From Metamycoplasma spumans ATCC 19526 (GTDB lineage Bacteria > Bacillota_I > Bacilli_A > Mycoplasmatales > Metamycoplasmataceae), in NCBI GenBank assembly GCA_000620005.1, contig JHVF01000011.1, positions 1 to 34,110 of the forward strand: a stretch of DNA of 34,110 nt, written 5' to 3'. Numbering within the stretch: position 1 is the stretch's first letter; the number at the start of each line of letters is the position of its first letter. Below, piece after piece: positions 18,975 to 20,075 of the stretch. Below the pieces are notes generated by a model that was not told the DNA's origin, did not search any database, and worked only from the letters and a program-made list of their open reading frames with translations. The position numbers and the translations under genes are program-made.

Positions 18975-18978
18975 CATA

Positions 18979-19012
18979 AAAAAACTCGTGAACTTAGCGC
19001 GAGTTTTTTTAT
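18979..19012. terminator. Bidirectional terminator between rpmE and the small peptide gene
   Basis: AAAACTCG at 18981-18988 pairs with CGAGTTTT at 19000-19007. The A-run before and T-run after give a stem plus U-tract on both strands. It ends rpmE on the plus strand and the convergent peptide gene on the minus strand. Confidence 0.85.
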
Positions 19013-19020
19013 TTTATAAT

Positions 19021-19278
19021 TTAAATACAATAATGAAATCCAACACTATATCCAATATTACTATTGCCGCTTTCTCACTTAGCATTAAAATCCTTTAACT
19101 TAATTTCACCGCTTTCAGCCTGCGATGCTTTTATTAAACCAATAGTCGAGCCAAGTGCGCTAAAAACAACAGGGATAAATGACAAAATCGTGGTGATTAA
19201 ACTAGCTGCCGCAAATCCTCCTGATATTTGTGTTTTTTTATTTTCGTCCATTAATTTAAACCCTTTTAGTTCTTTCAT
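19021..19278 (-). CDS. Small peptide precursor with a double-glycine-type leader (putative bacteriocin-like)
   Basis: This is an 85-aa product. Residues 1-21 (MKELKGFKLMDENKKTQISG then G) resemble the leaders removed by C39-peptidase ABC exporters: GG at -2/-1, Ile at -4, Met at -12, Phe at -15. The -7/-8 positions are Lys rather than the usual Leu/Glu. Residues 22-51 are a hydrophobic, Ala/Ser/Gly-rich segment (FAAASLITTILSFIPVVFSA...). The rest is amphipathic and continues through a TGA-Trp to GYSVGFHYCI, with a single Cys. It has a strong AAGGAG site. It is monocistronic between two terminators with its own likely promoter. No exporter or immunity gene is in view. It could instead be a small membrane protein. 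Confidence 0.6.
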
Positions 19279-19295
19279 ATTTTCTCCTTTCCTTA

Positions 19296-19323
19296 AATAT
19301 ATTAAATTTTTTTATTAAGTCAA
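19296..19323 (-). promoter_or_regulatory. Likely promoter of the small peptide gene
   Basis: On the minus strand TTGACT (19318-19323) and TATATT (19296-19301) are separated by 16 nt, the best -35/-10 pair in this gap. The start would fall close to the ribosome-binding site, giving a very short leader. Confidence 0.45.
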
Positions 19324-19353: not shown

Positions 19354-19376
19354 AGAAAAAACGCACATATGTGCGC
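19354..19376 (-). terminator. Terminator after lspA
   Basis: The perfect palindrome CGCACATATGTGCG (19362-19375), followed on the minus strand by TTTTTTCTTTT, lies immediately after the lspA stop. It separates lspA from the small peptide gene. Confidence 0.85.
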
Positions 19377-20075
19377 TTAATCATTAAAATTGTGGTTCGG
19401 GTCTTCAAGTGGACCAGTTCCTCTTTCAATTGAATCAACAACAACTATTTTATTATCGCTATTAAATTCAATATCTTCATCAACTTTTTCATTTTTTGAA
19501 GTCGTATCTTCTGTTTTGTTTTTCTTACTTTGATATCAATTAATTAAAGAAATAATTGCAATAGATAAAAATGCAGTAACGGCTCCAAAAACTAGTCAAG
19601 TATCAGCTATGTTAAATGTTCCTTTATTAGCTCATGGTAAATTAATTATATCTCTAACACCACCATAAGCGAATCTATCATACATATTTCCAAATGCGCC
19701 GGCAGCTACTAAAGCAATTGATGCAACTGTTCAACGATATCTTTTATCTCTGAAAAATAATGTAATTACCATAGTAGCTAAAATTATTAGAATGCTAACA
19801 ATATGAAGCCCAGTCATAGTTAAGCCTATTTCAAGAGTTGTGCCAGCATGAAATACAGATCACAATCTTATAAATGAACTTTCGTAAACAATATGATCTG
19901 GAGAAGAACCCGTATAGCCCTCTTTGTATATAAAATGCTTAGTTAATAAATCTAACAAAATTCCTGCTATTAACACAGAAAAATATATTGCCAAATTAAT
20001 TAATGCGTTTTTTCATTGTTTACTTCAATATTCCTTAGTAAATATTTCTGGCTTTTTCCTATTTGATTTAGCCAT
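19377..20075 (-). CDS. lspA: Lipoprotein signal peptidase (signal peptidase II)
   Basis: This 232-aa membrane aspartyl protease cleaves the signal peptide from diacylglyceryl-modified prolipoproteins. About four membrane segments are visible. The two catalytic motifs are present: NMYDRFAYGGVRD and FNIADTWLVFGA. A cytosolic N-terminus ([20 protein letters not shown]) and an acidic C-terminal tail of about 50 residues make it longer than the usual ~160-aa enzyme. Several TGA-Trp codons hide it under the standard code. The ATG overlaps the ileS stop by 8 nt, so the pair form an operon. Its partner Lgt is encoded about 8 kb away. Confidence 0.93.

Follow-up and report, generated by a model that had tools for sequence, protein, structure and literature searches.

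C39-peptidase ATP-binding cassette (ABC) exporters such as PCAT1, ComA and LahT act on double-glycine substrates, with leaders that carry hydrophobic residues at positions −12 and −4 and end in Gly-Gly. A C39 ABC protein is also present in the minimal mycoplasma cell JCVI-syn3A (0401), for which no double-glycine peptide was identified, nor were apparent candidates in other mycoplasmas, and lipoyl-peptide import was proposed in 2019 (PMC6609329). In the literature we searched, a double-glycine peptide of this kind is unreported for mycoplasmas. Here we describe a gene for an 85-aa (amino acid) peptide of Metamycoplasma spumans ATCC 19526, at 19021-19278 of the window, the 34,110-nucleotide stretch comprising contig JHVF01000011.1 (assembly GCA_000620005.1) that was analysed. 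Comparison of about 300 Mycoplasmatales genomes suggests that this peptide is very likely the substrate of the genome's sole C39-peptidase ABC exporter. It may have been overlooked because of its short, fast-evolving gene, and because several copies in another family of the order apparently start with ATT or ATC.

Co-occurrence of the peptide with a single C39 exporter

Across the order, peptide and C39 genes are present, and lost, largely together, most genomes having one of each; the counts are uncorrected for phylogeny. Each of the 24 genomes of the genus contains the peptide and a single C39 domain. In the family to which M. spumans belongs, C39 is present in 133 of 135 genomes; a first model matched the peptide in 127 of the 135 (E≤0.1), and a wider model in about 130 at E<1e-6. 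Beyond this family the search was iterative: weak matches outside it, mainly in f7 and f8, were inspected and used to build new models. Nearly all of these weak matches began with a leader whose last two residues were Gly-Gly or Ala-Gly. Models rebuilt from the iterated matches detected the peptide in 51 of 60 genomes of f7, where 49 genomes carry both genes, eight neither, two the peptide only and one C39 only (Fisher p 1.5e-7, without correction for relatedness). Family f8 yielded matches in 78 of 95 genomes at E≤0.1, some of them weak. Neither C39 nor a credible peptide match was found in the 10 genomes of family f3. Evolution couples the conserved peptide and its conserved cut site to the only C39 protein.

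Leader statistics were obtained from 110 leaders sampled from families across the order. Gly occupies position −1 in 109 leaders; at position −2 it occurs in 89, with Ala in 11 (Gly or Ala in 100) and Pro in 7. Leu, Met, Ile or Val fills position −12 in 108; Ile, Thr, Leu and Val predominate at position −4, and Glu is common at position −8. The leaders thus follow the pattern of ComA and LahT at every position but −7, where Lys is the prevailing residue. The 85-aa peptide has the hydrophobic −12 and −4 residues and the Gly-Gly/Ala at −2/−1 that characterize such substrates, and its leader is as the initial annotation had read it (Phe −15, Met −12, Ile −4, Lys-Lys −8/−7, Gly-Gly −2/−1), with a single Cys in the precursor, at residue 84. 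These features make it a probable variant double-glycine substrate. In its own genome a leader-only model ranks the peptide gene first, at 19.7 bits; the only other match sits within a repeat protein. The same model scores just background in genomes without C39. Of the bacteriocin-leader models that had been proposed as a check, TIGR01847 and TIGR03949 are exceeded at their curated cut-offs by some relatives (one reaches TIGR03949), and not by the 85-aa peptide itself.

The genome of M. spumans encodes exactly one C39 domain (E 1.9e-23). It belongs to a protein of 673 aa, encoded on the minus strand of contig C1 at 68364-70385, that also has membrane and ABC domains. The C39 and ABC_tran domains score above their Pfam cut-offs and the membrane domain just under. 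Comparison with the PDB showed PCAT1 to be closest (E 5.5e-36), followed by ComA (2e-25), nearly over the full length. The protein carries the oxyanion Gln-6, an intact triad of Cys-12, His-91 and Asp-107, Walker A and the signature motif, and Gln-6, Cys-12, His-91 and Asp-107 recur in ten further exporters from the order. The initial annotation had called the gene a double-glycine-leader peptide meant for a C39 exporter, and would have abandoned this had the genome lacked an exporter or the relatives lacked Gly-Gly. One exporter is present, homologues in relatives retain Gly-Gly, and relatives pass TIGR01847/TIGR03949, all of which support the call. In the mechanism that we propose, the leader would dock in the C39 domain of the exporter, which would cut the precursor after Gly-21, and a 64-aa hydrophobic peptide would then reach the outer surface of the single membrane or pass beyond it.

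The exporter gene is not adjacent to the peptide gene. Its place is immediately upstream of ybeY and era in M. spumans, in genome G289, which we take to be Mycoplasma genitalium strain G37 (with one extra gene between), and in Mesoplasma-like genomes, and it therefore looks ancestral. In families f8 and f11 about 1 kb separates the peptide gene from rpoD (for example G260 C9:9727-11449 and G319 C1:1080529-1082460), and in f7 the exporter sits in a ybeY-era-recO-glyS-dnaG-rpoD cluster, so peptide and exporter were perhaps once neighbours.

Conservation and features of the peptide gene

A homologue of the peptide is present in 24 of 24 genomes of the genus, with nonsynonymous to synonymous substitution ratios (dN/dS) of 0.06-0.20 between close pairs. 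The homologues align at the Gly-Gly site, which is kept except for Ala-Gly in two, and residues G21, E58, K60, K67, W68 and Y83 are invariant in the genus alignment. The 85-aa open reading frame (ORF) is therefore not a chance one, and purifying selection acts on the peptide. The gene is placed between rpmE/xfp and lspA/ileS; rpmE adjoins it in most of the genus, where the rpmE/xfp neighbourhood is mostly kept. Beyond the genus the neighbours differ, and conservation of the peptide is therefore not a by-product of linkage. The gene belongs to the core of the order and is single-copy, as a rule one per genome. A KGEIKTKD..KWD-type motif is common to the peptides of families f1 and f7, not f8, and homology between the mature parts of the f1/f7 and f8 peptides is tentative.

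Four f7 loci (L163, L164, L242 and L270) have no fitting ATG, GTG or TTG, and show an apparent ATT or ATC start after a GGGGTGAT-like ribosome site; such starts would conceal the f7 genes from gene finders. In some f8 genomes (L258, L260, L167) two genes for double-glycine-leader peptides stand side by side, an arrangement that recalls two-peptide systems.

The precursor translates (table 4) to MKELKGFKLMDENKKTQISGG followed by FAAASLITTILSFIPVVFSALGSTIGLIKASQAESGEIKLKDFNAKWESGNSNIGYSVGFHYCI, 85 aa in total. The predicted mature peptide has a maximum 19-residue hydropathy of 2.1 and a charge of about 0. Searches with the 85-aa peptide gave no family match in Pfam and a single match in NCBIfam, judged to be noise. 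A single-sequence AlphaFold model was uninformative, a long helix with a mean pLDDT (predicted local distance difference test) of 66.5. The features of the locus are collected in Table 1. Of the regulatory signals reported in the initial annotation, the strong ribosome-binding site holds, and most homologues are also preceded by one. The flanking terminator-like hairpins are well over chance (4 versus 0.2 ± 0.5 in shuffled sequences); the promoter-like site is present, and such matches in the region barely exceed chance (7 versus 3.8 ± 1.9 in shuffles). Because a terminator-like hairpin separates lspA from the peptide gene, the latter is probably its own transcription unit.

Table 1 Coordinates of the peptide gene and its surrounding signals in the window
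Feature	Coordinates	Strand	Details
Coding sequence, 85-aa double-glycine-leader precursor	19021..19278	minus	Table 4 (TGA = Trp); stop counted in coordinates
Leader, residues 1-21, predicted cut after Gly-21	19216..19278	minus	F-15, M-12, I-4, G-2, G-1
Predicted mature peptide, 64 aa	19024..19215	minus	Ala/Ser/Ile hydrophobic segment, SGEIKLKD..KW motif, C-terminal FHYCI
Ribosome-binding site AAAGGAG	19284..19290	minus	5 nucleotides from ATG; read from sequence
Promoter-like site TTGACT-16-TATATT	19296..19323	minus	10/12 matches; weak statistical support
Terminator-like hairpin, lspA/peptide gene interval	19359..19378	minus	
Terminator-like hairpin, rpmE (+)/peptide gene (−) interval	18976..19012		Strand unassigned; scored on + strand

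Possible function and alternative explanations

Scanning the whole G289 genome with the leader matrix revealed exactly one small ORF, at 25.2 bits; this ORF lies outside the 110 training leaders. NCBIfam places it in the MPN313 family (NF045747) at 138.9 bits, against a cut-off of 100. It is flanked by P41/HMW2-region genes and mraZ, and by position we therefore infer that the M. genitalium member of the family is MG220 (RrlA). The G289 exporter, at 491,537-493,516, has a position that agrees with the one given for MG_390 in PMC5745988. MG220 has been described as RrlA, a transmembrane protein and sigma accessory protein; it is needed, together with RrlB, for activation of sigma-20 in a feed-forward loop, and its loss leads to severe recombination defects (PMC9262362). 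A double-glycine leader of RrlA is unreported in the literature searched, which did not include the primary RrlA paper.

Because RrlA is reported to be necessary for sigma-20 activation, signalling or regulation is our leading hypothesis for the peptide's job: tentatively, it may be a signal or membrane regulator that the cell makes for itself and that the whole order has retained, rather than a bacteriocin. A more specific version, which we regard as doubtful, casts the peptide as a pheromone: a population or self signal of double-glycine type, processed by C39, in bacteria thought to have no peptide signalling. In M. genitalium, RrlA and the exporter MG390 would then activate recombination, antigenic variation and gene transfer through sigma-20, a reduced version of streptococcal competence. 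Provided that RrlA acts once exported, peptide signalling in some of the smallest pathogens would control both recombination and antigenic variation.

Several observations weigh against processing and export by the C39 protein, or against this role. The 85-aa peptide has Lys rather than a hydrophobic residue at position −7, and among the 110 leaders this position is Lys in 46 and Leu in 14, a hydrophobic residue being mostly absent. In LahT150, cutting is impaired by replacement of Leu −7 with Lys, and a hydrophobic residue is needed there (PMC6363468). The hydrophobic −7 residue is a contact in LahT and ComA and is not universal by family definition, and the mutational requirement comes from LahT150, not from a mycoplasma C39 domain. 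Mycoplasma C39 domains must therefore either recognize the leader in a somewhat different way or fail to cleave it; Lys −7 is the main sequence-level doubt about cleavage. The separate locations of the peptide and exporter genes in M. spumans also count against the proposal. In two genomes, G153 and G164, the peptide was found and C39 was not. In G164 (L249) the Gly-Gly is replaced by Gly-Val, as if the cut site had decayed after loss of the protease.

A further difficulty concerns export. All 10 sampled exporters of the Mesoplasma/Williamsoniiplasma-like genera g25, g29, g34 and g35 (L244-L247, L257, L271, L300, L352-L354) have lost Walker A, signature and Walker B and kept the protease triad; the ATP-binding motifs are retained in Spiroplasma-like genera, in M. 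genitalium and in the family of M. spumans. With a degenerate ATPase domain, ATP-driven export cannot be the mechanism in these four genera. They retain the peptide, which was missed only in G159, and judging by the motifs the function preserved there is cutting, not ATP-driven export. As for the role, an MG428-like (sigma-20-like) factor was not detected in the M. spumans genome, the search returning just RpoD and a 75-aa region-4 protein, and the M. genitalium RrlA pathway therefore cannot simply be transferred to it.

In M. genitalium the same search found the factor; G286, G208 and G157 gave candidates below the threshold, and the haemoplasma-like G138, which has neither peptide nor C39, gave one above the cut-off. 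With none detected in the M. spumans genome, a universal sigma-factor partner of the peptide is unsupported.

In another reading, the peptide would stay uncut as a small membrane protein with a relic leader, and the C39 protein would act otherwise, for example in lipoyl-peptide import as proposed in print for JCVI-syn3A 0401. The hydrophobic segment is long enough for a membrane span, RrlA is listed as transmembrane, and Lys −7 is unfavourable in LahT150. We nevertheless consider this quite improbable: Gly −1 is kept in 109 of 110 leaders while the rest varies widely, the peptide is lost jointly with C39, the C39 triad persists even where the ATPase domain has decayed, and the Gly-Gly gave way to Gly-Val in G164, without detected C39.

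Other explanations accept C39-dependent export and differ in what the peptide does. The initial annotation had listed a bacteriocin among its suggestions, and the leader type, the hydrophobic small-residue segment and the relatives that pass TIGR01847, or in one case reach the cut-off of the class IIb cerein model TIGR03949, would fit a class II-type bacteriocin killing related bacteria. This part of the annotation is not upheld; its other two readings, a pheromone and a membrane-active peptide, are still candidates. A bacteriocin is very unlikely: the gene is part of the core and occurs order-wide in single copy, unlike patchy bacteriocin clusters, and no immunity gene lies beside it, the neighbours being rpmE, xfp, lspA and ileS. 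The rpmE/xfp neighbourhood, unchanged across most of the genus, and the near-neutral charge also argue against it. A host-directed, membrane-active or adhesion peptide, as an alternative to a signalling job, would suit the hydrophobic mature part and the host-associated life of Mycoplasmatales. It seems unlikely, as the peptide occurs alike in insect, plant and vertebrate lineages, and Pfam and NCBIfam searches gave no similarity to toxin or adhesin families.

Comparison with described systems

The proposed pair of peptide and exporter resembles PCAT1, ComA and LahT with their substrates in the homology of the exporter and in the hydrophobic −12/−4 residues and Gly-Gly of the leader. Unlike in these systems, the mycoplasma leaders mostly lack the hydrophobic −7 residue, the peptide gene is unlinked to the exporter, and there is usually one substrate per genome, order-wide. 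The MPN313 family (NF045747) shares the leader type, the hydrophobic segment and the single copy, and its name makes no mention of a double-glycine leader. The 85-aa peptide itself has no match to NF045747 at E≤10, whereas f8 members match at 7.6e-10 and 5.1e-6, below the cut-off, and the M. genitalium ORF lies above it.

The streptococcal ComC/ComA/ComX system likewise combines a double-glycine peptide with a C39 exporter, and the M. genitalium recombination sigma factor depends on the peptide gene (PMC9262362). In contrast to ComC, the mycoplasma mature peptide is much longer and hydrophobic and has no known receptor; as the M. spumans genome lacks a detected sigma-20-like factor, the likeness to ComC is an analogy through RrlA only. 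JCVI-syn3A 0401 is, like the protein described here, a mycoplasma C39 ABC protein. It is presumably, by gene order, the exporter of the exporter-ybeY-era locus, and its probable relatives in this study (g25 and g29) have the degenerate ATPase domain. Mycoplasma C39 exporters of this kind, described as orphans, would gain an obvious substrate in the order-wide peptide, usually one per genome and lost with C39.
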